DNA of 64,000 bases from a bacterium (GTDB lineage: Bacteria; Auribacterota; Tritonobacteria; UBA1439): NCBI GenBank assembly GCA_028716845.1, contig JAQUPF010000009.1:1-64000 (forward strand), written 5' to 3'. The notes below the pieces were generated by a model that saw only the letters and a list, made by a program, of their open reading frames with translations, searched no databases and was not told the DNA's origin. Positions 396 to 61,728 of the stretch are shown piece after piece (positions within the stretch are counted from its first letter, which is position 1; every line of letters begins with the position of its first letter). The position numbers and the translations under genes were made by a program.

Positions 396-2108
396 TCAGT
401 CGGGGGCCGTGACCCGCATCACCTCCTCGAGCGTCGTCTGCCCCTCCTTCGCCCGGTCGAGCCCGACCATGCGGAGCGTCTTCATCCCCCGCTCGATGGC
501 GGCGAGCTTGATCTCGCGCGCCGTCGCCCGCTTCATGATGAGGGCCCGGACGTCGTCGTCCACCGCGATCGCCTCGATGAGCGCCATCCGGCCCGAGTAG
601 CCGGTGTTGCCGCACGAGGCGCAGCCGGCGCCGCGGAGGAGCCGGAGCTTCTCGCCCGGCGCGGGCGCGAGCTGCGCCTCGCGGAGCGCCTCGGCGGGCA
701 CCTTCACCTCCCGGGCGCACTTCCTGCAGACGCGCCGGACGAGCCGCTGCGCCGCGACGAGCAGCGTCGAGGAGGAGATGAGGAACGGCTCGATCCCCAT
801 GTCGTCGAGCCGGGTGATGGCGCTGGCGGCGTCGTTCGTGTGGAGGGTGGAGAGGACGAGGTGGCCGGTGAGGGCCGACTTGACGGCGATGTCGGCCGTC
901 TCGAAGTCCCTGATCTCGCCCACCATGACGACGTCCGGGTCCTGCCGCAGGATCGACCGCAGCCCCGCGGCGAAGGTGAGGCCGATCTCCGCGTTGACCG
1001 CCACCTGGTTGACGCCGTCGACCTGGTACTCGACCGGGTCCTCGACCGTCACGATGTTGATCCCCGGCTTGTTGATCGTCATGAGCGCCGTGTAGAGCGT
1101 CGTGGACTTCCCGCTCCCGGTGGGGCCGGTGAGGAGGACCATCCCGTACGGGGCGTCGATCGCCCGGCGGAATCCCTCGAGCCCCTGCTCGTGGAAGCCG
1201 AGCTTGTCGAGGGAGAGGCTCTGGAGGCCGCTCCGGTCGAGGACGCGCATGACGACCTTCTCGCCGAAGGCGGTCGGGAGGGACGAGACGCGGAAGTCGA
1301 TCTCCCTGCCGTGGACCTTGATCCGGAACCGCCCGTCCTGCGGCAGCCGCCGCTCGGCGATGTCGAGGTTCGACATGATCTTGATGCGGGAGACGACCGC
1401 CGACTGCATGTGCTTCGGCGGGGGGGTCGACTCGTAGAGGATGCCGTCCACCCGGTAGCGGAGCCGCATATCCTTCTCGAACGGCTCGATGTGGATGTCG
1501 CTCGCGCGGCTCTTGATCGCCTGGACGATGATGAGGTTCACGATCTTGATGATGGAGACCTCCCCGGTCCGCTCGGCGAGATCGTCGAGGTTGATCTCCT
1601 GCTCGGCGTCCAGCCTCCGCACCTCGACCCCGTCGGCGTCGGCGCGCCCGAGGAGGCGCGCCATGTCCGCCTTCGCGGAGTAGTAGTTCTCGATGGCGTA
1701 CTGGAAGTCCTTCGGCGAGCAGATGACCGGGAGGATCTCCAGGCCGGTGATGAGCTTGATGTCGTCGAGGGCGAGGACGTTGAGCGGGTCCACCATGGCG
1801 AGGGTGAGGGTGTGCCCCAGGCTGGCGAGCGGGACGGCCTGGTAGGCGGTGGCCGTCTGCCGCGGGACGAGCTCCATCACCTCCGGCGCGGGCCTGAACT
1901 TCCCGAGATCGACGGCGGGGATGCGGAGATGGTCGGCGACGCAGGAGATGAGGAGCCGCTCCTCGACGTACCCCTTGTCCACGAGGAGGCGGGCGATGCT
2001 CCCCCCCTCGCTCTTGTGCTGCGCGAGGGCCTTCTGCATCTGCTCGGCGGAGATGCATCCCTCCCGGAGGAGGATGCCGGGGAGATCCTCGATGAGCGAT
2101 GTGACCAT
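396..2108 (-). CDS. pilB: Type IV pilus assembly/type II secretion hexameric ATPase (PilB/GspE family)
   Basis: A 570-residue cytoplasmic motor ATPase that powers pilus or pseudopilus extension. It shows an N-terminal MshEN/GspE-N region (about 1-150), Walker A GPTGSGKST at about 328-336, an Asp-box region near 351-360, Walker B VVMVGEIRD at about 393-401, a His-box THLHT-like segment STLHTNDA near 420-427, and a tetracysteine zinc site with C461, C464, C496 and C499. Length and motif order are normal for PilB/GspE. It follows the MshEN protein gene by 3 bp and precedes pilC, so the three form one operon. PilB versus GspE naming is not decided by the sequence. Confidence 0.93.
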   Translation of the reverse strand: MVTSLIEDLPGILLREGCISAEQMQKALAQHKSEGGSIARLLVDKGYVEERLLISCVADHLRIPAVDLGKFRPAPEVMELVPRQTATAYQAVPLASLGHTLTLAMVDPLNVLALDDIKLITGLEILPVICSPKDFQYAIENYYSAKADMARLLGRADADGVEVRRLDAEQEINLDDLAERTGEVSIIKIVNLIIVQAIKSRASDIHIEPFEKDMRLRYRVDGILYESTPPPKHMQSAVVSRIKIMSNLDIAERRLPQDGRFRIKVHGREIDFRVSSLPTAFGEKVVMRVLDRSGLQSLSLDKLGFHEQGLEGFRRAIDAPYGMVLLTGPTGSGKSTTLYTALMTINKPGINIVTVEDPVEYQVDGVNQVAVNAEIGLTFAAGLRSILRQDPDVVMVGEIRDFETADIAVKSALTGHLVLSTLHTNDAASAITRLDDMGIEPFLISSSTLLVAAQRLVRRVCRKCAREVKVPAEALREAQLAPAPGEKLRLLRGAGCASCGNTGYSGRMALIEAIAVDDDVRALIMKRATAREIKLAAIERGMKTLRMVGLDRAKEGQTTLEEVMRVTAPD

Positions 2109-2111
2109 GCC

Positions 2112-2642
2112 TCACCTCTCGGCGGCGCCCTCGTCCTCGATATCGAAAACCTTGATCCCCTCCTCCCCCTCCGGCGCCGGGGAGGGGCGATCCGACTTCA
2201 GCCGCCCGTAGTGCTCGTTGATCGCCGTTGTGATCTCGCTGTGCGTCGAGACGAAGGGGATGACGGCGCACTTCGTGAGCGCCTCGATCTCCTCCGCCGC
2301 CCGCGCGTCGAGCGGGTTCTCCATGGCGACGGTCAGGACCCTGCCCATCCGGTCCACGGGGAAGCAGCGGTGCCTGACGGCGAGGTCGAGGGGAATCAGC
2401 CTGAGCAGCTCCTTGTCCACATCGTGCTGCCGGAGGGGAAGATAGGGGATGTGGTACTGCGTGGCGACCGCGTCCACGACATCCTCCTCCCGCGCGAACC
2501 CCATCTCGACGAGGATCTCGCCGAGGAGCTTGCCGGTCTCCTTCTTGCGGACGAGGGCCTTTTCGAGATGTTCCTTTGTGATCACGCCGTGGTCGATGAG
2601 GAGCTCGCCGACCATCTTCTTGACGACCCGTTTCAAGGCCAT
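2112..2642 (-). CDS. Stand-alone MshEN/GspE-N domain protein
   Basis: A 176-residue protein starting at the ATG at 2642, preceded by a strong GGAGG eight bases upstream; longer upstream reading frames are not needed. It contains the GELLIDHGVIT...LGEILVEMG repeat pattern and a PYLPL...LIPLDLAVRH segment typical of the MshEN domain, which in MshE and PilB ATPases can bind cyclic-di-GMP. It has no ATPase domain. The tail is acidic and proline-rich. It is the first gene of the pilB operon, 3 bp before pilB, so it may be a regulatory or adaptor subunit of the motor; that role is inferred. Confidence 0.8.
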   Translation of the reverse strand: MALKRVVKKMVGELLIDHGVITKEHLEKALVRKKETGKLLGEILVEMGFAREEDVVDAVATQYHIPYLPLRQHDVDKELLRLIPLDLAVRHRCFPVDRMGRVLTVAMENPLDARAAEEIEALTKCAVIPFVSTHSEITTAINEHYGRLKSDRPSPAPEGEEGIKVFDIEDEGAAER

Positions 2643-2672
2643 GGCGCCTCCGGGAATCGGAGTGACACCCTT

Positions 2673-2701
2673 TTCATAGCACATACGATGAACAGAATCA
2701 A
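2673..2701 (-). promoter_or_regulatory. Sigma70-type promoter for the MshEN-pilB-pilC operon
   Basis: On the minus strand the -35 TTGATT (2696-2701) and -10 TATGAA (2673-2678) are separated by 17 bp, about 30 bp upstream of the ATG at 2642. Each box matches the consensus at four of six positions. Confidence 0.5.
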
Positions 2702-2708
2702 GCGCCTG

Positions 2709-2724
2709 TTTGCAGAACTGCAAA
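2709..2724. promoter_or_regulatory. Palindrome upstream of the pilB-operon promoter
   Basis: Perfect 7-bp arms TTTGCAG and CTGCAAA separated by AA, centred about 18 bp upstream of the -35 box. Position and symmetry suit a dimeric transcription factor site; no regulator is identified. Confidence 0.4.
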
Positions 2725-2767
2725 TTCGACCATGGCGCCGACTGTCCCGCCCGCGGCGACGGACCGG

Positions 2768-4633
<1,866 letters not shown>

Positions 4634-12902: not shown

Positions 12903-13040
12903 GTGTCTCCACTTTCCAGAACGACATCCGCGGGCGGCGGTTCGGGTAGTATACACCAGCCGCGCGCGGAATGGGAGCGCGAAGCCGCGGCTGAGCGTAT
13001 CGTTTTGCCGCGGACAAACAACAGTTGAAAAAATAAGGAA

Positions 13041-13246
13041 CCAATCTACCACGGATTGACACGGATTATTGACGGATACCCACGGATGAAAAAACAGTTC
13101 AAAGTAGAAAGTTGAAAGCGGGAGAAAACCCCCTCCCGAGACGGAAACGCTGCCCCTTTTACTTTCAACTTTTAACTTTGAACTTTAAACTTTCAACTGT
13201 AGTTGCCATCCGTAATGATCCGTGCAAATCCGTGGTCAATTAGTTC
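13041..13246. repeat. Composite hairpin intergenic repeat block
   Basis: The left side reads ACCACGGATTGACACGGATTA then TTCAAAGTAGAAAGTTGAAAG; the right side reads CTTTCAACTTTTAACTTTG... and ends ATCCGTGCAAATCCGTGGT. Left and right arms are largely complementary, so the block can fold into a long imperfect hairpin about 200 bp in extent. Confidence 0.75.
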
Positions 13247-13262
13247 GTTATATCGTGGTATA

Positions 13263-17383: not shown

Positions 17384-17423
17384 CAACCGATTTCAATAAG
17401 ATATCGTGGTCCGGCCCCAGCAT
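17384..17423 (+). repeat. Degenerate left part of the 144-bp repeat
   Basis: Reads CCGATTTCAATAAGATATCG then TGGTCCGGCCCCAGCAT, matching the left third of the 144-bp repeat at 18904 and 23672 with several changes. It is separated from the matching right part (17677) by about 250 bp of unrelated sequence. The gap 17245-17790 otherwise shows no gene. Confidence 0.55.
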
Positions 17424-17676: not shown

Positions 17677-17769
17677 GATCTCGATGTTCCTTCAGGGACC
17701 GAACGATGCCGAGCCGAAATCCATCCAGGGAGAATGTTAGTGTAAAGTAGAGGTCTGGCCCCGACTTTC
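17677..17769 (+). repeat. Degenerate right part of the 144-bp repeat
   Basis: Matches the right two thirds of the 144-bp repeat (GATCTCGATGTTCCTTCAGG ... AAAGTAGAGGTCTGGCCCCGA) with a handful of mismatches. It lies just downstream of the HEPN gene stop. Confidence 0.65.
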
Positions 17770-17790
17770 ATTCAGGCGCTACTTCGCAGC

Positions 17791-18219
17791 TCATACTGCC
17801 CCGCCTTCTGCCGCCTCGCCGACGAGCCTTTCCGCCCACCTTATGACTGCGTACGCAATCTCGACCGCGCGAGTAACTTCCTTCGTGGGGATAGGGCCGT
17901 TCAGCCCCGGATAACGGGCTTCAACCGCATAGGGTGTGAGCTCCTCCGCCTCGAGCACATCCGCTGGAATGTCTATCTTCTCATCAGAAACCAGCCTGAG
18001 AAGCACTTCAATATCGTGGACGAAGGGGAACGGAATCCTCCGAAAAATCATAACGGCCTTGATCGCCTTTTCCGCCGCTTGCTGAGCGAGGAAACAAACC
18101 TGATGGGACAATTCATTCTCATCCCTTTCACCCAGGCGAGCCAGGGCGAGGTCCTTGCGGGCATACGCCAGCCATTCTCCCGCTGATTCCGATCTCAGCC
18201 GATAATCATCCCGCCTCAT
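17791..18219 (-). CDS. HEPN-domain protein (toxin of MNT-HEPN pair)
   Basis: A 142-residue all-helical protein with the HEPN pattern AGEWLAYARKDLALA, CFLAQQAAEKAIKAVMI and the R61-x6-H68 motif (RRIPFPFVHDIEVLL) associated with RNase activity. It overlaps the upstream nucleotidyltransferase gene by 14 bp, the standard MNT-HEPN arrangement in which the MNT partner neutralises the HEPN RNase. Confidence 0.85.
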   Translation of the reverse strand: MRRDDYRLRSESAGEWLAYARKDLALARLGERDENELSHQVCFLAQQAAEKAIKAVMIFRRIPFPFVHDIEVLLRLVSDEKIDIPADVLEAEELTPYAVEARYPGLNGPIPTKEVTRAVEIAYAVIRWAERLVGEAAEGGAV

Positions 18220-18541
18220 ACAACACCTTCCCGCTTCGGAGAGCCGCCCCGTAAATCAACCCCGGCCTTGACACCAGGTCATTGAAACGGTCTTCCGAAA
18301 CCACGATGATGTCCATCGGCATCACGATGTCCTTCAGGAGTCTCCGTATTCGGACTGACTCCCGCCGCGGATTGTCAACATCTCCGCGAGCCACGACCAG
18401 GATATCGACATCGCGCGGCTGCCGCTTGCCGCTGACGGCCGAACCGAAGACGATAATCTTCCTTGGATTCTCCAGAGATGCGATTCTGCCGGTCGCTGCG
18501 GCAATCTTCTCCGGCGTCACCGCCCAGTACTCAGGATTCAT
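18206..18541 (-). CDS. Minimal nucleotidyltransferase (MNT antitoxin)
   Basis: A 111-residue protein with the nucleotidyltransferase motif G33-S34 (VFGSAVSGKRQPRDVDILVV) and the D44-x-D46 pair. In characterised MNT-HEPN systems this partner adenylylates a Tyr in HEPN. The start follows GAGAGG. It is first in the two-gene operon. Confidence 0.87.
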   Translation of the reverse strand: MNPEYWAVTPEKIAAATGRIASLENPRKIIVFGSAVSGKRQPRDVDILVVARGDVDNPRRESVRIRRLLKDIVMPMDIIVVSEDRFNDLVSRPGLIYGAALRSGKVLYEAG

Positions 18542-18903: not shown

Positions 18904-19047
18904 CCCTTACAACGGATTGCAGCAAGATAGCGTGGTCCGACCCCAGCATGCCGATCTCGAGGTTCCTTCAGGGACCGAGCGATGCCGAGCCGAAATCCCT
19001 TCGGGGAGAATGCTAGTGTAAAGTAGAGGTCTGGCCCCGATTTTCTC
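18904..19047 (+). repeat. 144-bp direct repeat, copy A
   Basis: Copy A runs from CCCTTACAACGGATTGCAGC to GGCCCCGATTTTCTC and differs from copy B (23672-23815) at one position (GAATGCTAG versus GAATGTTAG). It begins 16 bp past the last gene of the zinc-ribbon operon. Apart from this copy, the gap 18542-19063 shows no gene. Confidence 0.95.
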
Positions 19048-19063
19048 CTAAGAAATTGATTTG

Positions 19064-19414
19064 CTAATAATACCTATAATACTGCCTCCCCACATACGCA
19101 TAGTAGCCGATAATCCCCCCCACAATACCGCATCCCAGACCCATGATTATAATATTCAAACCGTGGTTTCTCTCGCCCTTGTTCAAAAGCATGAATCCGA
19201 TGACTACTCCAGCGATTGCAATAGGCGGTAATACAATGCCCAAGCCCGAGCATACATATCCAGCCGTTATCAGTCCCTTGCCCTCGGACGCCCTCGGTCC
19301 GGGAACACCCTCTCTCCTCATGCCGGTTGGAGCAGCCGCTCCGGTCGCTTTCCCGCAATAGGCGCAGAACTTCGTGCCATCCTCGATCTGTTTGCCGCAG
19401 TTCGGACAGAACAT
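19064..19414 (-). CDS. Zinc-ribbon membrane protein
   Basis: A 116-residue protein with an N-terminal zinc ribbon (MFCPNCGKQIEDGTKFCAYCG, cysteines in CX2C...CX2C) and two membrane helices downstream (GLGIVLPPIAIAGVVIGFMLL and IIIMGLGCGIVGGIIGYYAYV). Similar small zinc-ribbon/DUF4190-like proteins are common and uncharacterised. It is the last gene of the zinc-ribbon operon, 22 bp after the hydrolase gene. Confidence 0.75.
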   Translation of the reverse strand: MFCPNCGKQIEDGTKFCAYCGKATGAAAPTGMRREGVPGPRASEGKGLITAGYVCSGLGIVLPPIAIAGVVIGFMLLNKGERNHGLNIIIMGLGCGIVGGIIGYYAYVGRQYYRYY

Positions 19415-19436
19415 GCGCCCCTCCTTTCCGCCGGCC

Positions 19437-20599
19437 CTAGGGCGGCTTAACGCGCAAGCTTCCAGTAAACCAGGTCACCGCGATATGCGCGCTGCAGATT
19501 GCGGTCCTGGGACTTAGACCATGGCGGAACAATGCGTAGATGTCATTGATGATGTCCCGGCACACTGAAAAATAGCCGTGGGCCGAACCGAGCAGGTCAA
19601 GGTCTACCTCGGAGACGTCGATCGTGTCGACGCTCCGCGTGACGACCAGGTACTCCCCCCCTTCACCAGCGCGCGGGTAGCCGGGCGCCTTCTTCGAGAG
19701 CTTAAGGGCGCTGTCGCCGGAAGATGCATACAGCGTCACGCGCCCGCACGAGGCGCTCAGCCGAGGGGCGATGTCCCGCTCGAAGACCCCGGAGTCGATG
19801 TCCGGCGCCGCGAGAATCACCTGGTCGAAAAGTCCGCCGCCGCACTCCGCCGCAACCTCCTCCACAGCGTCAGCGAGGACCCGGCTTCCCATGCTGTGAG
19901 CGATCAGGTGGATTTTCTTCGCGCCGGTGCGTTGGGCGAGGGTTTTGAGAAACTCCTTGAGGTGCGGCTTCGTCCATTGCACCGTGGCTTCCGAAGTCGT
20001 GTAGTTGATGGGCGACCATGCCTTACGAGTCGGCCAGATGTACGTCACGGGCACGCCCGGAAAGTTAAGATCGTAGGCCATCTGGGCCGTGCGGCCGACC
20101 GCGTCCTCAAATTCGTTGTTGTAACCGTGGATAAAGACGAACACGCTGCCGCCGGGCTTCTCGTTGATGGCCCTGATCCCGGCGAGGAACTCATCCTCCG
20201 CAAGCGCGCTCAGGCGCATAAGCACGACATGCTTTTTCGGATCATCCCTGAATTCGAAGCGCCACCACGCCGGGGACTCTAGCTTCCCCCTCGCGTGCCT
20301 CTTTGGGATGCTCACGGAGCATTTCCCATACTCAAGATCCCCCCGCGCGTGCCCGTAATAGTCTTTCGGCTTGCTTTCTCCTGTCCTCGCGCGATCGGTG
20401 GCGTAGTATACCTCTACGGCCACGTAATCCCTTGCCTGGTCTCCGGCATCATCATGCTCCCCGCCGCGCGTTTCCTCGGCGCATCCAGGCGCGAGATCGG
20501 AATGCACGGCCGGAGACAGACTCCGAAACGTGCGCACCCTGCGCACGCGAATGAGAAAATGGAATAAAGGGAATATGCTCTCGCCGCGGCCCGAGACAT
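19437..20599 (-). CDS. Alpha/beta hydrolase of the DUF900 type, probably a lipoprotein with a frameshifted leader
   Basis: The main reading frame encodes EVYYATDRART at the start of the domain, an oxyanion-type segment VFVFIHGYNNEF, the nucleophile elbow IAHSMGS, a late Asp (ILAAPDID) and a C-terminal HGYF His. These are DUF900 hydrolase features. The frame stays open upstream but overlaps the M48 gene, so its start is unclear. A second frame has an ATG at 20599, three bases after the M48 stop, with SD GGAAGTGAG and a lipoprotein-like leader (SLYSIFSFACAGC). Joining that leader to the hydrolase requires a frameshift between about 20414 and 20560. The domain call is firm; the N-terminus is not. 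Confidence 0.7.
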
Positions 20600-20601
20600 A
20601 C

Positions 20602-21933
20602 TCACTTCCGTTTGCGTTTCGCAGATTGAAGCTTGTTTCCGCATCCGGGGCAGAATTTAATACCCCTCGACACCTCTTTGCCGCATGAGCGGCATTTTGA
20701 TTTCCGCGGGGCCGTTTTGCCCTTCGCGATGGCGGCGCCGCAGGCGCTGCAAAACTTCGCGCCTGTCCCGGCAGCGGCGCCGCATGAGGGGCATTCACCG
20801 GCTTCGGCAGACCGTGCCGCCACTTTCGTCCCGCACCCCTTGCAGAAGGCCCAGCCGACCTCCAGTTTCGCCCCGCACTTCACGCAGGCGGATGCCGCTG
20901 CCGTCGCCGCCTGGGGTGTGCCACAATAAGGACATGTGCCCCAAGCCGGATCGATCTTCTCCTTACACTTGGCGCATGCCACCATGGGCTTGAGCGCCTG
21001 GCCGCAACCGGGGCAGAATATGATCCCGGGCTTCAGCGCGGCACCGCATGACTGGCACCGAGATGCAGCCTCCTCCCTCCTGAGGTAGTCACCCGCCAGG
21101 ATTTTCCTATATTCGTCCGAATCGCCCCAGAGTGCGACCTCCCTGCTCCTATATACGCAGAATGGATGCGTCATTCCCGCAATCTGGAGCCCTTTAAGGG
21201 CTTTGATGTAGATCCGATTCTCGATATCTTCGAACTCCTTGGCCTGAGCGTATACCTCTTCCATGTTTATCTCGCTCACCTTCACCGCCGAGGCGCCCGC
21301 CAGCTTGGCAAGGGACGAGGCCATTACGGAGGGGTTCTGCGTGACGAGAAGCGCCGCGCGGTCGCAGCTCAGCTCGGCCCTGCGGCTCCATGCGCATAAG
21401 GCAAGCTGGAGAGGAATAAGGGCTGCCTGCCCTATACTGAAGATCTGCCCCATGGCTCCGCCGACAACATCGGAGAGGATCACTGCTACGGTCTTGTAGA
21501 GCATGTGTTCGCACTTGACGTGGGAGAGCTCATGGCCGATCACACCCATGAGCTCGTCCTCGCTCAATATATCCACCAGGCCGGAATAGAGAACGATGAA
21601 GTATCGGTGCATGCCGAAGGCGTAGGCGTTCACCTGATATTGGGTATTGAGATATATTTCCGGAAGAGGGTGCATATCCAGGATCGCGGCCGCCTCCTGG
21701 AACATGGCGTATATACGCGGGCACTGCCGCGGACTGAGTCTGATATTGCTCCCCAGGAATTTTATCCTTTCGACTTCCTCCAGATAGTTTTTAGAGATCC
21801 ATTTCATTACAATCGGCAGGACGGGAATCTTCCGAAGATTCTGGATGGCCTTCAGGTCCGCGGGATGCTGGTAGGCCAAATGGCTGAGACCGGGGAATCT
21901 TTTCAGGTTATCGGCCCTTTGCGACTTTGTCAT
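20602..21933 (-). CDS. M48-family metalloprotease with five C-terminal zinc ribbons
   Basis: A 443-residue protein. The protease part (about 60-260) has HELSH at 134-138 (zinc ligands plus catalytic Glu) and E187-x3-D191 downstream (RRAELSCDRAA), the gluzincin pattern of M48 enzymes. From about 293 to the end come five CX2C...CX2C ribbons in tandem (CQSC/CPGC, CAKC/CPYC, CVKC/CKGC, CPSC/CSAC, CRSC/CPGC). M48 proteases usually have membrane helices; here only one moderately hydrophobic stretch (about 145-180) is seen. The ribbons presumably mediate binding to partners or nucleic acid. It sits mid-operon among other zinc-ribbon genes. Confidence 0.85.
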   Translation of the reverse strand: MTKSQRADNLKRFPGLSHLAYQHPADLKAIQNLRKIPVLPIVMKWISKNYLEEVERIKFLGSNIRLSPRQCPRIYAMFQEAAAILDMHPLPEIYLNTQYQVNAYAFGMHRYFIVLYSGLVDILSEDELMGVIGHELSHVKCEHMLYKTVAVILSDVVGGAMGQIFSIGQAALIPLQLALCAWSRRAELSCDRAALLVTQNPSVMASSLAKLAGASAVKVSEINMEEVYAQAKEFEDIENRIYIKALKGLQIAGMTHPFCVYRSREVALWGDSDEYRKILAGDYLRREEAASRCQSCGAALKPGIIFCPGCGQALKPMVACAKCKEKIDPAWGTCPYCGTPQAATAAASACVKCGAKLEVGWAFCKGCGTKVAARSAEAGECPSCGAAAGTGAKFCSACGAAIAKGKTAPRKSKCRSCGKEVSRGIKFCPGCGNKLQSAKRKRK

Positions 21934-22002
21934 TCAACGCCTCCTTGCGCTCATGGGTGCGGATTGTCTTCACCACCGCATGGAGCAGGGCCCGTTGACT
22001 TC

Positions 22003-22458
22003 TTATAGCTTCTGATACACTTGGAAAAGGAGCACGGCCGCCACTATGCCGATTATCCCTCCAAAATCAGCGAAGATGATAATATGCAGAAGGCCAAACA
22101 GCCCACACACAATTGCGAAGCCCATGCTGGCCCCTTTGACGTTCTGGTAGTTCCTATCCTTAATATTCTTGTGCACCAGTAAGTATATTCCCGCCGAAAT
22201 TCCTCCGAAGATCAGCATGCCGAATAGGTTCCCAAACATCACGTTGAGCAACGCAGCAACCCCTATCGCTATCGCGGCGCCGAGCGAGAGCTGTTCCATT
22301 TTCCCTATTTCCGCAACGGTCAGATTCCCTCCCGTCCGCTCCCCATGTCGCGCTCCGCGCATTTCGCATGGCACAGCGGGATATGAGATCTGTGCGCCGC
22401 ACTCGGGGCAGAACCTGTTGTCGTCTGCAATCTGCTTCCCGCATTCAGAGCAGAACAT
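22003..22458 (-). CDS. Zinc-ribbon membrane protein
   Basis: A 151-residue protein with an N-terminal ribbon (MFCSECGKQIADDNRFCPECG) and three or four hydrophobic helices from about 58 to 148. Function is unknown. It is 13 bp after the preceding zinc-ribbon gene and 69 bp before the M48 gene. Confidence 0.75.
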   Translation of the reverse strand: MFCSECGKQIADDNRFCPECGAQISYPAVPCEMRGARHGERTGGNLTVAEIGKMEQLSLGAAIAIGVAALLNVMFGNLFGMLIFGGISAGIYLLVHKNIKDRNYQNVKGASMGFAIVCGLFGLLHIIIFADFGGIIGIVAAVLLFQVYQKL

Positions 22459-22471
22459 AATATCCTCCCTT

Positions 22472-23098
22472 CTATGAAGCCGCAGCGGTTTTCGCCCCGC
22501 ACGATGTACAAAATATGGCGTCGGGCTTGAGAGGAACGCCGCACTTGCTGCAACTGTTTCCGTCCGGCTTCGCGACCGTCACCGCAGCCCCGCACGAGGA
22601 ACAGAACTTCGCGCCATGGACGAGGGGGGCACCGCATTGACAGGAAGCGGGCCCGCCCTGCTTCAACGGCTCTGCCTTCGAACCGCACCCCGTGCAGAAC
22701 TTCGCCCCCGCTTGAAGCGGAGCTCCACACTTCAGGCAAGCTAAGCGTATATCTGTATGCACAAATTGTCGCTTTAAACCGAGGTGCTCATCGAGTTTTT
22801 CAAAAAGCGTTCTGAGGTCCTTATGCTGTTGGCCTGTCATCTCGACAGGGTGTTTTGTTCTCGACTCGATGGTAACAACAACATCTCCGTCATCTGGCGC
22901 CTGGCTTACCTCAGCGTTTATCTTGGACCCCCATGTTCCCACCAAGGCTATCAGTTTTGCCGGACGATTGAATTTGATTATGCCGGCGGCCTGATCCTGT
23001 TCGATGATTTCAAGCCCCAGTTCGGCCCCCGCAGAAAGAAGCGCTCCGAATACCTCCGCGCGCTCTTTCTTGTACTTTCTCGAATCAATCGCCTTCAT
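22472..23098 (-). CDS. Soluble protein with three zinc ribbons and an unknown N-terminal domain
   Basis: A 208-residue protein. Residues 1-110 form a mixed alpha/beta domain I do not recognise (AEVFGALLSAGAELGLEIIE... FNRPAKLIALVGTWG). Residues 119-205 hold three ribbons (CLKC/CTGC, CQCG/CSSC, CSKC/CTSC). Its ATG overlaps the stop of the 67-residue gene (ATGA). Confidence 0.75.
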   Translation of the reverse strand: MKAIDSRKYKKERAEVFGALLSAGAELGLEIIEQDQAAGIIKFNRPAKLIALVGTWGSKINAEVSQAPDDGDVVVTIESRTKHPVEMTGQQHKDLRTLFEKLDEHLGLKRQFVHTDIRLACLKCGAPLQAGAKFCTGCGSKAEPLKQGGPASCQCGAPLVHGAKFCSSCGAAVTVAKPDGNSCSKCGVPLKPDAIFCTSCGAKTAAAS

Positions 23099-23298
23099 CC
23101 TCCATTCTCCTTCCCGATCGACGCGCCGCAGTGCATGCAGAATTTCATCCCATCCCGGACTTCATTCCCGCATGTCGGACAAGCGGATCCTCCGGGAGTG
23201 CACGATGCCGCTTTGGCCTTTTTTATCGCTCGCTTCGACATATACCTCCATCCGAGAATCGCAAGAAGAATCAGTCCAAAAAGAACTGGCATCATCAT
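23095..23298 (-). CDS. Small membrane-anchored zinc-ribbon protein
   Basis: A 67-residue protein with one N-terminal membrane helix (MPVLFGLILLAILGWRYM), a basic stretch (KRAIKKAKAA) and one ribbon (CPTCGNEVRDGMKFCMHCG). It starts the zinc-ribbon operon after AAAAGGAGATATTCCGC. Function is unknown. Confidence 0.75.
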   Translation of the reverse strand: MMMPVLFGLILLAILGWRYMSKRAIKKAKAASCTPGGSACPTCGNEVRDGMKFCMHCGASIGKENGG

Positions 23299-23469
23299 GC
23301 GGAATATCTCCTTTTAAAAGCGATGATTACATGAAAAACCCGGCATGGCCTGCGCCCCTGCCGGATCCAAACAGAGAGCATCACTCATGGGCAATCCTTT
23401 GAAATTATTTTCATGCAAAGAACACTTATTATCAGGTAGATGGCCTATGCTTACTGCATCACGGATTTC

Positions 23470-23498
23470 AAAATATTCTAACTGTTTCCTATTGTCAA
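23470..23498 (-). promoter_or_regulatory. Strong sigma70-type promoter of the zinc-ribbon operon
   Basis: Minus-strand -35 is a perfect TTGACA (23493-23498), the spacer is 17 bp and the -10 is TATTTT (23470-23475). It points toward the first zinc-ribbon gene with a leader of about 170 nt in which I see no confident structure. Confidence 0.6.
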
Positions 23499-23542
23499 CC
23501 ACTAATGTCCAAATTGTCCTCAGGGAAAATTCTAAAAAATAA

Positions 23543-23568
23543 TCGGGGTCACCTCTACTGTTCACTTT
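23543..23568 (-). repeat. Inverted, diverged copy of the 144-bp repeat end
   Basis: TCGGGGTCACCTCTACTGTTC resembles the reverse complement of the repeat's right end (TCGGGGCCAGACCTCTACTTT). A second GGGGTCACCT follows at about 23584. With copy B it makes an imperfect inverted pair about 270 bp apart. Confidence 0.45.
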
Positions 23569-23671
23569 GCAAAGGGAAGGGCCGGGGTCACCTATTCAGG
23601 TGGCGGTCAGCAGCAAAGACACGACACCTGTCAGGCACGCCTGTGCTATTGCCTAAAAGTCCGGGACATTG

Positions 23672-23815
23672 CCCTTACAACGGATTGCAGCAAGATAGCG
23701 TGGTCCGACCCCAGCATGCCGATCTCGAGGTTCCTTCAGGGACCGAGCGATGCCGAGCCGAAATCCCTTCGGGGAGAATGTTAGTGTAAAGTAGAGGTCT
23801 GGCCCCGATTTTCTC
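23672..23815 (+). repeat. 144-bp direct repeat, copy B
   Basis: Differs from copy A (18904-19047) at one position in 144, in the same orientation. It lies between the zinc-ribbon operon promoter and the end of hsdR. The gap 23299-23853 contains this repeat, the promoter and the inverted partial copy, and no convincing gene. Confidence 0.95.
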
Positions 23816-23853
23816 TATTGCCGACTGGTGCGGCGCCTTGTTAGACGCCCCTC

Positions 23854-26800
23854 TCATGACGTCGCCCATTCCGCAGACAAGAGCGCAGCCTGCTCCAGCA
23901 CCGTCTGCGTCGCCTTTTCCTGCTTGTCCGGAGGGTAGCCGTATTTGCGGAGAATGCGCTTGACCAGCACGCGGAGCTGCGCGCGCACGTTCTCGCGCAG
24001 CGTCCAGTCGATGGTCACATTGTTACGTACGGTCTCGACCAGCTCGCGGGCGATGCCGCGCAGCGTCTCGTCGCCGAGCACCTTCACGGCGCTGTCGTTC
24101 GTCTCGAGGGCATCATAGAAAGCGAGCTCGTCCTCGGTCAGTCCGAGCTTCTCGCCGCGCGCATCTGCTTCGCGCATCTCCTTCGCGAGCTGGATCAACT
24201 CCTCGATCACCTGAGCCGCCTCGATGGCGCGGTTCTGGTACTTTCGGATCGTCTGATCCAGCATCTCGGCGAAGGAGCGTGCCTGCACGACGTTCTTCCG
24301 CTGACGCGTCTTCAACTCGCCCTTTAGCAGCTTCAGCAGCAGCTCTACGGCCAAGTTGCGCTGCGGCATGCCCCGCACCTCGGCCAGGAACTCGTCTGAA
24401 AGGATCGAGATGTCCGGCTTCTCGAGCCCGGCGGCGGCGAAGATGTCCACAACACCTTCCGGAGCCACGGCGCGCGAGATGATCTGGCGTACGGCGTGGT
24501 CCAGCTCTTCCTCCGGACGGGCGTCGGCCGGGGCGCGCTTGGCGAGCACCGACTGCACCGCCTGGAAGAACGCGACATCGTCGCGGATGCGGAGCGCCTC
24601 CTCGTGCGGCACCGCGAGCGCAAAGGCCTGAGACAGCTCGCGGACAGCGCGGATGCAGCGATCCTTGCCGTTCTCCTGGGCGAGGATGTGCTCCTGGGCA
24701 GCCGGCAGCAGGCCGAGGCGCTCCTGCGGTGTGCCAATCGTCCATTTCGACCGTTCAAACCCGTGGAAGAGGCCACAACAGACCTCATACTTCTCCAGCA
24801 TCACGGCCACGGCCTCGTCCTGATCGAGTGCCGTCCGCCCCGTGCCACCGCTCTCCGTATACGTGGCAAGCGCCGCCTTCAGCTCGTGGGCGAGCCCCAG
24901 ATAGTCGACGACGAGCCCGCCCGGCTTGTCCTTGAAGACGCGGTTCACGCGCGCGATCGCCTGCATCAGGCCGTGCCCGCGCATCGGCTTGTCCACGTAC
25001 ATAGTGTGCAGACTCGGTGCATCGAAGCCGGTGAGCCACATATCGCGCACCAGCACCATACGGAGCGCATCAGCGGGATCTCGGAAGCGGTTCGCCAGTG
25101 CCTCCCGCCGCGGCTTGTTGCGGATGTGCTGCTGCCAGTCCGCCGGATCGGACGCCGACCCGGTCATGACCACCTTGATCGCGCCCCGCGCATCGTCATC
25201 GTCCGCCCAGTCGGGGCGCAGTCGAACCAGCTCGTGATGGAGCTCCACGCAGATGCGTCGGCTCATGCACACGATCATCGCCTTGCCATCCATCGCCTCC
25301 AGCCGCTTCTCGAAGTGCTCGACGATGTCCTCCGCGATGAGCCCTAGGCGTTTTTCGGCCCCGACGATGGCCTCGAGCTGCGCCCACTTCGTCTTCAGCT
25401 TCTCTTTCTGTTCGACCTCCTCGCCCTCGGTGGCTTCCTCGAAATCCGGGTCGATTCTGGGACGTTCGGCCTCGTCGAGCGCTAACTTGGCAAGGCGGCT
25501 CTCGTAGTAGATTGGAACCGTTGCCCCGTCCTCCACCGCGCGCTGTATGTCGTACACGCTGATGTAGTCGCCGAATACTGCGCGCGTGTTGGCGTCTACC
25601 AGCTCAATCGGAGTGCCGGTGAAGCCGATGAACGAGGCATGCGGCAGCGCGTCGCGCATGTGGCGCGCAAAGCCATCAATGAAATCATATTGGCTGCGGT
25701 GCGCCTCGTCGGCGATCACCACAATGTTGCGCCGGTCGGAAAGTGTAGGGTGCCGGTCCCCCTTCTCCTCCGGGAAGAACTTGTGGATTGTGGTGAACAC
25801 CACGCCGCCCGCTTCTACAGAGAGCAGTTGCCGCAGGTGCGCGCGGCTTTCCGCCTGCACCGGCGGCTGGCGCAGCAGCTCCTGGCAGCGGGAGAAAGTC
25901 CCGAAAAGCTGGTCGTCGAGGTCATTCCGGTCCGTGAGCACCACGAGGGTCGGATTCGCCATCGACGACTCGCGGATGATGCGGCCCGCGTAGAAGGCCA
26001 TCGTCAGGCTCTTGCCAGAGCCCTGAGTATGCCATACGACGCCCACGCGCCGATCGCCGAGCCTACCGCCGGGCTTCCTGCCCGCTTCGTAGCGCCCGCC
26101 GCCATCGGCGACCCGATCCCACGCGATCTTGGCGGCACGGAGCGTCTCCCCCACCGCCACCTGCACGGCGTGGAACTGGTGGTAACCGGCCATCTTTTTG
26201 ACGATGCGCCCGCCGCCCTCGTTCTCGAACACGATGAAGTCATGCGCCAGGTCAAGGAAGCGCCGCGGGGCCAGCAGGCCCTCGATCACGACCTGGAGCT
26301 CGGGCATGTTCGTGTCGGCCACCGCTTCGCCCGAGATCGTACGCCAGGGCTTGAACCACTCCCGGCCAGCGGTGAGCGTTCCGGCGCGCGCCTCGACGCC
26401 GTCCGAGACAACCAGCACGGCGTTGGTCGCAAACAGCGCCGGGACCTCGGCCATGTAGGTCTGGAGCTGCTGGAAGGCGGTCCAGATCGTGGCGTCCTCG
26501 CTGGCCGCGTTCTTGAGCTCGAGCACAGCGAGCGGCAGGCCGTTGACAAACAGCACCACATCCGGGCGGCGGCTGTGCTTGTTCCCGGCCTGACCGGCAG
26601 GCAGGTCGACGACCGTGAACTGGTTAACTGCCAGCCAGTCGTTACTCGCGGGATCGTCGAAGTCGATCACCCGGGCCTGCGCGCCGCGGATCGCCCCCTC
26701 GGCGTCACGGTACTCCACCGTCGCGCCGTCCACCAGCAGGCGGTGGAGCGCCCGGTTACGCTGGACCAGGTCCGCGCCCTCGGGTCGGGTCAGTTTCCGG

Positions 26801-27012
26801 AAGGCGTCGTCGAGCGCCTCGACGGGCAGATCGGGGTTGAGGCGGGCGAGCGCGTCGCGCAGGCGTTGCGCGAGCGCCACCTCGCCGTAATCGTGCCGCT
26901 CGGCGGTGAGCATGTCGGGCGCAATATCGGGGCCGTGAGCAATGCGCCAGCCGATGGACTCAAGCCAGGCGAGGGCGGCGTCTTCGACGATGGATTCGGT
27001 AAAGGAAGTCAT
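23854..27012 (-). CDS. hsdR: Type I restriction enzyme, R subunit
   Basis: A 1052-residue restriction and translocation subunit. The PD-(D/E)XK nuclease domain shows P150-D151 and E165-L-K167 ([21 protein letters not shown]). The SF2 motor has Walker A GSGKS at 331-335, DEAH at 435-438 and IGFTGTPIE after it. The start is the ATG at 27012, which gives the family's normal N-terminus; the frame extends upstream into the neighbouring gene. A diverged LPAGQAG sequence at 137-143 resembles the palindromic element seen in hsdM and hsdS. It is last in the hsd island. Confidence 0.95.
26587..26605. repeat. Diverged palindromic element in hsdR
   Basis: GCCTGACCGGCAGGCAGG differs from the hsdM and hsdS palindromes by one or two bases in one arm and encodes LPAGQAG (HsdR 137-143), just before the nuclease active site. 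Confidence 0.5.
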
Positions 27013-28501: not shown

Positions 28502-28767
28502 GCCGTCGCCTCCAGGGTCTCCGCGCCGCACCACGCGGGGAGCTGGGTCACTCGGTGCCCGATAATCCCGATGACGCGACGTTTCACGTTGACCAGAACG
28601 AGCGCGTCGCGCAGGCGTTGCGCGAGCGCCACCTCGCCGTAATCGTGCCGCTCGGCGGTGAGCATGTCGAACGCAATATCGGGGCCGTGGGCAATGCGCC
28701 AGCCTATGGCTTCTAGCCAGGATAGTGCTGCTTCTTCCACCATAGATTCAGTGAACAGTGCAATCAT
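28498..28767 (-). pseudogene. Truncated duplicate of the hsdR 5' end
   Basis: An 89-codon frame whose residues 5-55 ([19 protein letters not shown] onward) match residues 4-54 of the full HsdR almost word for word ([19 protein letters not shown]). The match stops at LAQRLRDAL and an unrelated 33-residue tail follows. The start region of hsdR is therefore present twice, 1.75 kb apart. The most likely cause is insertion of the AlbA-type gene into an ancestral hsdR with duplication, or recombination between two RM loci. It may still be translated. Confidence 0.75.
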
Positions 28768-41119: not shown

Positions 41120-42484
41120 ATGAGAACCGCCCCCATGCTTATCGCGGTGCTCCTCCTCGCGGCGCCGGCGGCAGGCGAGCCGCCCGGGCCGGTGTACGTC
41201 GTGCCGGTCGAGGGGGAGATAAGCCGCGGCCTCGTGTACCTCGTGCGGCGCGGGATCCGGGAGGCGGAGGCGGCGCGCGCCGCCGCCCTCGTCCTCCGCA
41301 TGAACACGAACGGCGGCCGGCTCGACGCCACCGAGGAGATCATGGAGGAGCTCGCCCACACGCCGCTTCTGACGATCACCTTCGTGGACCACAAGGCGTT
41401 CTCGGCCGGGGCCTTCATCGCGATCGCGACGAAGGCCATCTACATGGCCCCCGGCGGCCTCATCGGGGCGGCGACGCCGGTCATGGTCGGCCCGGGCGGC
41501 GGGAGGGATATGGGCGAGGCGATCGAGGAGAAGGTCACCTCCGCCACCCGGGCGATGATCCGTTCCGCCGCGCGGCGGAACGGCCACCCGGCCGCCGTCG
41601 TCGAGGCGATGGTGGACCGGGACGTGGAGATCCCGGACGTGAGCCCGAAGGGGAAGCTCCTCACGCTCACCGCCGAGGAGGCGGCGGAGGAGGCCGTCGG
41701 CCTCTCCCTCGGGACGGTCTCGTCGGTCGAGGAGATCCTCCGTCTCCGGGGGCTCGAGGGGGCGGCGGTCGTCGCGATCGAGCCCCGCTGGTCGGAAAAG
41801 GCGGCGCTCTTCCTCACCCACTCGGTCGTCTCCGGCCTCCTCCTCATGGCGGGCATGATGGGGCTCTACATCGAGTTCAAGACGCCCGGCTTCGGCCTCC
41901 CCGGCCTCGCCGGCCTCGCGGCCCTCGGCCTCTTCTTCTGGGGCCACCGCGTCGCGGGCCTCGCGGGGTTCGAGGAGCTCGCCATCCTCCTCCTCGGCCT
42001 CCTCCTCCTCGGCCTGGAGATCTTCGTCATACCGGGATTCGGCGTCGCCGGCATCGCGGGGATCGCGGCCATCTTCGCCGCCATCCTCTCCTCGATGCTG
42101 CGGCGGTTCCCCGGCGCGCCGGTCGTCCCCGAACTCGGCCGGCTCGCGCAGCCGCTCCTCTCGCTCGGCATCGGCATCGCGGGGAGCTTCTTCGGCGCCG
42201 CCATTGCCCTCCGCTACCTGCCGCGGGCCGGGGCCGCCCGCGGCATCATCCTGACCGAGGAGGAGCGCGCCGCCGAGGGGTTCAGGTCGGCGCCGCGTGA
42301 CCTCGCCGGCTACGTCGGCCGCGAAGGCGTGGCCCTGACCGACCTCCGCCCGGCCGGGAAGGCGCGCTTCGGCGAGGAGCTCCTCGACGTCGTCACGGAG
42401 GGCGACTACCTCGACCGGGGCTCCCGGATCACCGTCCTGGCCGTCGAGGGGGGCAGGGTGGTCGTCGCCGCCCGGCGGGCCTGA
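41120..42484 (+). CDS. nfeD: Long-form NfeD membrane serine protease
   Basis: A 454-residue protein with a signal sequence (MRTAPMLIAVLLLAAPAAG), a ClpP-like domain with S95 in HKAFSAGAFIA and K138 in EEKVT, the positions of the Ser-Lys dyad in archaeal PH1510, then four or five membrane helices and a C-terminal OB domain (YVGREGVALTDLRPAGKARFGEELLDVVTEG). SD AGGAGAC lies upstream. NfeD proteins work with flotillin/stomatin partners; a flotillin gene follows at 43431. Confidence 0.9.
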   Translation: MRTAPMLIAVLLLAAPAAGEPPGPVYVVPVEGEISRGLVYLVRRGIREAEAARAAALVLRMNTNGGRLDATEEIMEELAHTPLLTITFVDHKAFSAGAFIAIATKAIYMAPGGLIGAATPVMVGPGGGRDMGEAIEEKVTSATRAMIRSAARRNGHPAAVVEAMVDRDVEIPDVSPKGKLLTLTAEEAAEEAVGLSLGTVSSVEEILRLRGLEGAAVVAIEPRWSEKAALFLTHSVVSGLLLMAGMMGLYIEFKTPGFGLPGLAGLAALGLFFWGHRVAGLAGFEELAILLLGLLLLGLEIFVIPGFGVAGIAGIAAIFAAILSSMLRRFPGAPVVPELGRLAQPLLSLGIGIAGSFFGAAIALRYLPRAGAARGIILTEEERAAEGFRSAPRDLAGYVGREGVALTDLRPAGKARFGEELLDVVTEGDYLDRGSRITVLAVEGGRVVVAARRA

Positions 42485-42485
42485 C

Positions 42486-42893
42486 AAAGAACCAATTCAC
42501 CGCGGATTGCCACTGATCATTACGGATCGCCACCGATCCGGCGATAAAGAACAAATTTACCACGGATTATCACGGATCATTACGGATCACCACTGATCCG
42601 GCGGCAGCTAAAAACTGAAAAGGAACAGCGTTTTTACCGCGGATGCACGCGGATGGCAACTACAGTTGAACGTTCAAAGTTCAAAGTTCAAAGTGAAAAG
42701 GAACAGCGTTTCCATCCCGGGACGGGTTTATCGTCACGCTTTCAACTTTCAACTTTGGACTTTGAACTGTTGTTGGTCCGCGTCAATCCGCGGCGATATA
42801 GTGTGCCCTCCTGTTTTCGACTTTCAACTTTCTACTTTGAACTTTCAACTGTTGTTGTTCCGTGTTAATCCGTGGTAACTTGGTTCTTTATTC
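42486..42893. repeat. Large composite hairpin repeat block
   Basis: Contains two tandem CACGGATTA/GATCATTACGGATC-type units with CACTGATCCGGCG, then TTCAAAGTTCAAAGTTCAAAGT facing CTTTCAACTTTCAACTTTG and CTTTGAACTTTCAACTG. The two arms are largely complementary. No gene is supported in the gap between the two nfeD genes. Confidence 0.75.
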
Positions 42894-45176: not shown

Positions 45177-45180
45177 GCAC

Positions 45181-45398
45181 TACAGTTCAAAGTTCAAAGT
45201 TCAAAGTAGAAAGAAGATACCATTGCTTTGCCGCGGATTGACGCGGATTATCGCGGATCATATGCGGCCCGCGGCAAGCTCCCCTTCCTCCTTCCCCTTC
45301 AATCCGCGTGGATCCGCGTGCATCCGCGGCAAAAACACTGTCACTTTTAACTTTGAACTTTCAACTGTAGTTGCCATCCATGGTGGATTGGTTCTTTG
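45181..45398. repeat. Composite hairpin repeat block after tRNA-Leu
   Basis: Left arm: TTCAAAGTTCAAAGTTCAAAG then CCGCGGATTGACGCGGATTA. Right arm: AATCCGCGTGGATCCGCGTG, GCATCCGCGGCAA, then TTTAACTTTGAACTTTCAAC. The arms pair in order, so the block forms a two-segment hairpin of about 200 bp. It starts within 5 bp of the tRNA CCA end. Confidence 0.8.
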
Positions 45399-53371: not shown

Positions 53372-53514
53372 CGTCGCCGCTCCTTTCGTGCGGAGGCCTC
53401 CCGCCGGGGCCTCCTGCACATCATACCAAAGCCCGTCCGGGTAAAACAGCGCCGAGGCCGCCCCTGCCGCACAATGAACCCCGCGCCACGGTTAAACGAA
53501 GGATATATCTATGA

Positions 53515-53790
53515 AGCAACAATCTACCACGGATTGACACGGATTATTGACGGATATTCACGGATTAGACAACAGTTAGAAATTGAAAATAAGAAAAACA
53601 AATTTGCCGCGGATTGACGCGGATTATCGCGGATAATACGCGGCAAGCACCTCTTCTCCCTTCCTCTTCAATCCGCGTGGATCCGCGTTCATCCGCGGCA
53701 AAAACGCTGTTCCTTTTTAGTTTTAGCTGCCGCTGGATCAGTGGCGATCCGTAATAATCCGTGATAGTCCGTGGTGGATTGGTTCTTTGA
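53515..53790. repeat. Composite hairpin repeat block
   Basis: ACCACGGATTGACACGGATT, a TTAGAAATTGAAAATAAG stretch, CCGCGGATTGACGCGGATTA, AATCCGCGTGGATCCGCGTT, GTAATAATCCGTGATAGTCC and a final GTGGTGGATTGGTTCTTTGA make up the block. Left CGCGGATT units face right AATCCGCG units, so it can fold. The gap 53372-53866 holds only this block and the ppx leader. Confidence 0.75.
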
Positions 53791-54793: not shown

Positions 54794-54985
54794 CCAACAG
54801 CCGCGGATTGACGCGGATTATCGCGGATAATACGCGGCCTGAGGCAAGTTCCTCTTTCCCTTCCTCTTCAATCCGCGTGGATCCGCGTGCATCCGCGGTA
54901 AAAAACGTTGGTGCTTTTCACTTTTAACGTTGAACGATCAACTGTAGTTATGATCCGTGGGAATCAGTGGTAAATTCCTTCTTTG
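54794..54985. repeat. Composite hairpin repeat block
   Basis: CGCGGATTGACGCGGATTAT and its facing AATCCGCGTGGATCCGCGTG with GCATCCGCGG, then CACTTTTAACGTTGAACGAT and a terminal GTGGTAAATTCCTTCTTTGA. It is close to the blocks at 45.2 and 53.5 kb. It lies between ppx and the rhomboid gene. Confidence 0.75.
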
Positions 54986-61537: not shown

Positions 61538-61670
61538 CCCCTCTCCCTTCCTCCCTCCGTTCCGGCGAGGCGCGTGCGCGCCTTTTCAGCGCCGGGGAGG
61601 GCAGTGTAGCAAAGGGGGGTCCGGTGTCAACACCATTTCGCCCGGCAGCGCCGAAAGCACGAAGAAGCAA

Positions 61671-61728
61671 TCAACCACCGATTCCCACGGATCATTACGG
61701 ATCGCCGCTGATCCGACGGCAGCCGAGA
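61671..61728. repeat. Fragment of composite repeat
   Basis: CACCGATTCCCACGGATCAT then TACGGATCGCCGCTGATCCG match parts of the block at 42.5 kb. It lies upstream of the phosphate-permease gene. Confidence 0.6.

Follow-up and report, generated by a model that had tools for sequence, protein, structure and literature searches.

Direct repeats resembling fused RAYT-type transposon ends flank a zinc-ribbon operon in a low-G+C accessory island of a member of the Auribacterota

Results

A zinc-ribbon operon within an accessory island

The DNA analysed here, referred to as the window, is a stretch of 64,000 nucleotides at the start of contig JAQUPF010000009.1 (assembly GCA_028716845.1). Between about 16 and 31 kb its G+C falls below that of the sequence on the left, and this part encodes a ParE-type toxin-antitoxin pair, an ion channel, a HEPN-MNT pair, a six-gene operon and a type I restriction-modification (RM) system. 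The low G+C and the accessory nature of these genes indicate that the operon is one module of an accessory island and, as the modules adjoining it are similarly low in G+C, it does not differ from the island in this respect. Three copies of a repeat (R1 to R3), composed of two end motifs named F1 and F2, lie among these modules:

17384..17421, plus strand: left half of R3, an F2 end, about 250 bases from the right half
17677..17771, plus strand: right half of R3, an F1 end with interior sequence (92% over 93 bases)
17791..18541, minus strand: HEPN-MNT module, located between R3 and R1
18904..19047, plus strand: R1, composite repeat of 144 bases (F2 end, spacer of about 60 bases, F1 end), its end motifs tied to Y1 transposases
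19064..19414, minus strand: operon gene 6, zinc ribbon and hydrophobic segments, 116 aa
19437..20567, minus strand: operon gene 5, DUF900 alpha/beta hydrolase, with the start codon set by us in a frame that stays open further upstream
20602..21933, minus strand: operon gene 4, M48 peptidase with C-terminal zinc ribbons, 443 aa
22003..22458, minus strand: operon gene 3, zinc ribbon and hydrophobic segments, 151 aa
22472..23098, minus strand: operon gene 2, several zinc ribbons, 208 aa
23095..23298, minus strand: operon gene 1, small membrane-like protein with zinc ribbon, 67 aa
23470..23498, minus strand: sigma-70-like promoter match TTGACA-17-TATTTT upstream of the operon (a consensus match only)
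23541..23569, minus strand: degenerate inverted F1 end, CGGGGTCACCTCTACTGTTCACTTT, beside R2
23672..23815, plus strand: R2, second copy of the composite repeat
23854..27012, minus strand: type I RM gene hsdR, in the next module after R2

The operon thus comprises four zinc-ribbon proteins, the M48 peptidase and the DUF900 hydrolase. Matches to the sigma-70-like consensus numbered five in the region against 3.1 expected. Among the other 43 genomes of the phylum searched the DUF900 gene was not found, and for the M48-zinc-ribbon protein the related genomes searched yielded only partial relatives. An orthologous operon elsewhere was rejected: the best relative, an M48-zinc-ribbon protein encoded in an Acidobacteria MAG, is 36% identical, no partner operon was seen among the ORFs around it, and plasmids yielded M48-domain relatives only.

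Two other sets of repeats were observed in the window. A direct repeat of 157 bases (89%; 26847-27003 and 28599-28755) lies upstream of hsdR and of a Schlafen/AlbA_2-type gene, its copies being located near the start codons of these two RM-island genes. A further interspersed family (13033-13251, 42483-42892, 45179-45383, 53514-53788, 54800-54984, and 61659-61723) is partly self-complementary and built of inverted-repeat units of 200-280 bases.

Three copies of the repeat in one orientation

The initial annotation had described two 144-bp direct copies with one mismatch, without an ORF, around a complete operon and its promoter and directly beside RM genes, and our analysis bears this out, the promoter being a putative one. 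R1 and R2 are 143/144 identical, are in direct orientation 4768 bases apart and differ solely at position 19013 (C versus T); a weaker similarity continues for 14 bases further left, giving 158 bases at 96%, and the length of the match excludes chance. Between the copies lie the six ORFs (19064-23298) and AT-rich upstream DNA, and no convincing gene was found inside the repeat. Folding of the 144 bases was not above that of shuffled sequence (z-scores of 0.56 and 0.15); a structured RNA was thus rejected, Rfam matches in the window being limited to two tRNAs.

What the annotation as a pair overlooked was the interrupted third copy, R3, outside the operon, as well as the inverted F1 partner at 23541-23569, which, paired with R2, may make up a MITE-like element some 270 bases long. 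All three copies share one orientation and each lies, in terms of the genes' strand, just 3' of a minus-strand gene: R3 is located 19 bases beyond the stop codon of HEPN (17791), R1 starts 16 bases beyond that of the last operon gene (19064), and R2 is found 38 bases beyond that of hsdR (23854). The repeats thereby mark module boundaries in the accessory island, i.e., those of HEPN-MNT, the zinc-ribbon operon and RM.

As the genome is in 36 contigs, apparently from a metagenome assembly, and the repeat is about as long as a short read, a false join at the 144-base repeat was considered. Such an artefact is highly improbable given that the copies differ by one base and all of their flanks are different, that the gene strand is consistent over both junctions, and that a diverged third copy is present nearby.

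Each end matches the terminal motif of a different Y1 transposase family

The right end of the 144-mer, AGTGTAAAGTAGAGGTCTGGCCCCGATTTT, fits the F1 motif TTAGTCAATAGTAGAGGTCTGACCCYGA..TTTT, for which the consensus TTAGTCAATAGTAGAGGTCTGACCCYGAW..TTTT was derived from 39 distinct copies in the fetched loci of four genomes. In all five F1 elements examined, which are located on contigs 5 and 7 of the source genome and in one locus each of the relatives G001, G002, and G004, a Y1 gene lies between inverted copies of the motif. Of the 44 genomes of the phylum searched, F1 was confined to four, which all belong to the family of the source genome; the reversed control pattern was absent in the other three F1 genomes and occurred once in the source genome. 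The left end, GCAAGATAGCGTGGTCCGACCCCA, fits a second motif, F2, with the sequence AAGATATCGTGGTCCGACCCCA (also written AAGATATCGTGGTCCGACCCC). In both of the elements analysed (G005 and G003) F2 ends bracket another Y1 protein, distinct from that of F1, and the motif was present in 6/6 members of the family with a few one-mismatch matches elsewhere in the phylum.

Both the F1 and the F2 Y1 proteins score over the cut-off for PF01797. Against the curated RAYT model NF047646 the one protein tested, the F1 Y1 protein of contig 5, gave 66.2 bits, which is below the 80-bit cut-off. Residues 242-332 of this contig 5 protein (L167) show a weak match to the DnaA C-terminal region (NCBIfam TIGR00362, E 2e-4). 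A third Y1 gene on contig 10 of the source genome (L011, 37356-37577) is flanked by a different palindrome, CCACCTCGTAGGTGG, with a near-reverse on the opposite side, and looks like a third RAYT-type family. In G002 another pair of inverted F1 ends (L163, about 560-3310) is 2.7 kb apart and has two main ORFs in place of the Y1 gene. These ORFs resemble what we take to be IstA/IstB-type (IS21) genes, and for this reason the pair was read as a nested insertion and not as captured cargo.

With a left end fitting F2 and a right end fitting F1, the 144 bases run from the end of one family to that of the other in the same direction, and on this sequence basis we read the repeat as terminal motifs of two IS200-like transposase families (Y1, RAYT-type) fused head to tail. 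There is no Y1 gene in the repeats of the window themselves, and end motifs without a transposase are dispersed in the source genome and the family. The location of the motifs around Y1 genes, together with this dispersal, indicates that they are REP/RAYT-type non-autonomous transposon ends. Neither transposase, on the other hand, would have an obvious substrate in a unit whose two ends come from different families.

Extended copies occur in local arrays

Elsewhere in the source genome, for which genome-wide figures were drawn from sequence searches and retrieved loci, matches to the repeat are mostly of 25-40 bases at one of its ends, the longest being 77 bases at 78% on contig 1. A second array was detected on contig 6, where two copies in direct orientation, each about 170 bases long, share 90% identity and end at the same F1 motif; they surround a single gene, adjoin a BrnT/BrnA pair and also have only end-sized matches elsewhere. 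Extended copies ending at the F1 motif therefore form local direct arrays at two places, the operon locus and contig 6, and seem to arise locally. In both arrays the right-hand identity ends where the motif and its T-rich stretch end, which favours duplication or homogenisation involving the element ends, and the presence of both halves in R3 suggests that the fusion probably predates the copying.

Discussion

We consider it probable that the repeats are non-autonomous REP/RAYT-type elements, i.e., F2 and F1 ends with a join of about 60 bases, which have spread locally and between which the operon merely lies. The F2-F1 composite would have formed once and then spread in its neighbourhood, with the Y1 proteins presumably mobilising the repeats in trans. 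The near-identical pair is most likely, from the pattern of identity, the product of a recent local duplication or homogenisation; duplication or gene conversion could have proceeded via RecA or via transposase activity at the ends. In this view the operon would be bracketed through occupying a space between repeats and not as demonstrated transposon cargo.

The initial annotation had proposed a recombinational cassette or composite mobile element. The part of this proposal that holds is that the repeats are mobile-element sequence, but most copies of the ends are unrelated to the operon, no transposase is present inside and there is a third copy. A check for similar repeats at other cargo, suggested in the same annotation, did find them, R3 following HEPN-MNT and a second array being present on contig 6. 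Many dispersed copies unrelated to cargo had been named as evidence against a cassette, and for the end motifs this is largely what was found, the dispersed RAYT-type ends being mostly unrelated to the operon. No transposase, integrase or recombinase is encoded between R1 and R2, and no target-site duplication was found in the outer flanks of the two copies. The 144-mer had no match in plasmid or phage collections, which led us to reject a plasmid or phage origin, and the exact 19-mer of its right end was absent from viral contigs. A composite transposon or mobile cassette is thus not demonstrated, and nothing shows movement of the gene cluster itself; deletion or excision between R1 and R2 is possible.

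A specific form of mobility would be integration of a circle made up of one repeat and the operon: a single crossover with a repeat already present between MNT and hsdR would insert it and leave direct repeats, and the reverse reaction would excise it. We regard this as unlikely, even if the near-identical direct repeats at both ends, the failure to find the operon proteins in relatives (save for partial relatives of the M48-zinc-ribbon protein) and a regional G+C below that of the backbone are as it would predict. The unit has no recombinase inside, its repeat matches no plasmid or phage, the third copy is outside it, the adjoining modules are similarly low in G+C, and no empty site was seen among the relatives searched, a set without a genome of the same genus.

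The location of the repeats after genes also raises the possibility that accessory modules are exchanged at RAYT-type ends following each gene or operon, with Y1 transposases or recombination between ends driving what would be an integron-like array. An end motif in one and the same orientation closes three modules here and at least two on contig 6, and among end motifs within 100 bases of a called gene in the source genome the ends face gene 3' ends 15 times versus five times for 5' ends. This bias is suggestive only, because it rests on heuristic gene calls, and it drops to 12:5 once local duplicates are collapsed; moreover, REP-like elements are tolerated mainly between genes anyway. A 12-base sequence identical to a common start of integron attC sites, TCTAACAAGGCG, does occur on the minus strand at 23834-23845, right after the stop codon of hsdR. 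An integron was nevertheless rejected, as a second half to this sequence was not seen and the genome yielded no integron integrase over cut-off; the best match to TIGR02249 was 85.5 bits versus a cut-off of 265 bits, and control genomes likewise give sub-cut-off matches. Nor does the repeat, with the folding z-scores of 0.56 and 0.15, behave as an attC-type folded site. Exchange of modules through these ends therefore appears very doubtful to us, but if true such ends may contribute to the reshuffling of modules in islands of toxin-antitoxin and restriction genes.

Under the reading that we favour, local REP/RAYT-type elements, a documented kind of element takes the place of a supposed new mobile cassette, and two Y1 end motifs, each with its transposase, are now defined for this bacterial family. 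A composite transposon requires a transposase and a defined unit. The locus shares with such transposons the two direct repeats around a set of genes, but its repeats are not insertion sequences, there is no transposase and a third copy is present. It resembles an integron cassette array in having a repeat in the same orientation after each module, and differs from one in that the genome has no integron integrase over cut-off and the repeat no attC-type folding.

The closest likeness is to the REP/RAYT system, in which an inverted pair of REPs, each headed by GT(A/G)G, has been described on either side of RAYT genes (PMC2817692). Shared features are dispersed short ends, inverted pairs around a Y1 gene, a GTAG/GTGG-like start, and a mostly extragenic location. 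In contrast to that system, the palindromes of F1 and F2 (GGTC-N-GACC, by inspection) are far shorter, the copy number is in the tens and not in the hundreds, and the contig 5 protein scores beneath the curated RAYT cut-off. In view of the very short palindrome and of this sub-cut-off transposase we use the label RAYT-type without asserting that the system is a strict member. Also on record are REP arrays next to gene clusters and hybrid dimers that combine different REP families (PMC3733652). The repeat reported here is like these in combining two different end families in one unit and in forming a local array beside genes, and is unlike them in that its ends, in head-to-tail order, have a spacer of about 60 bases between them and that whole accessory modules follow.
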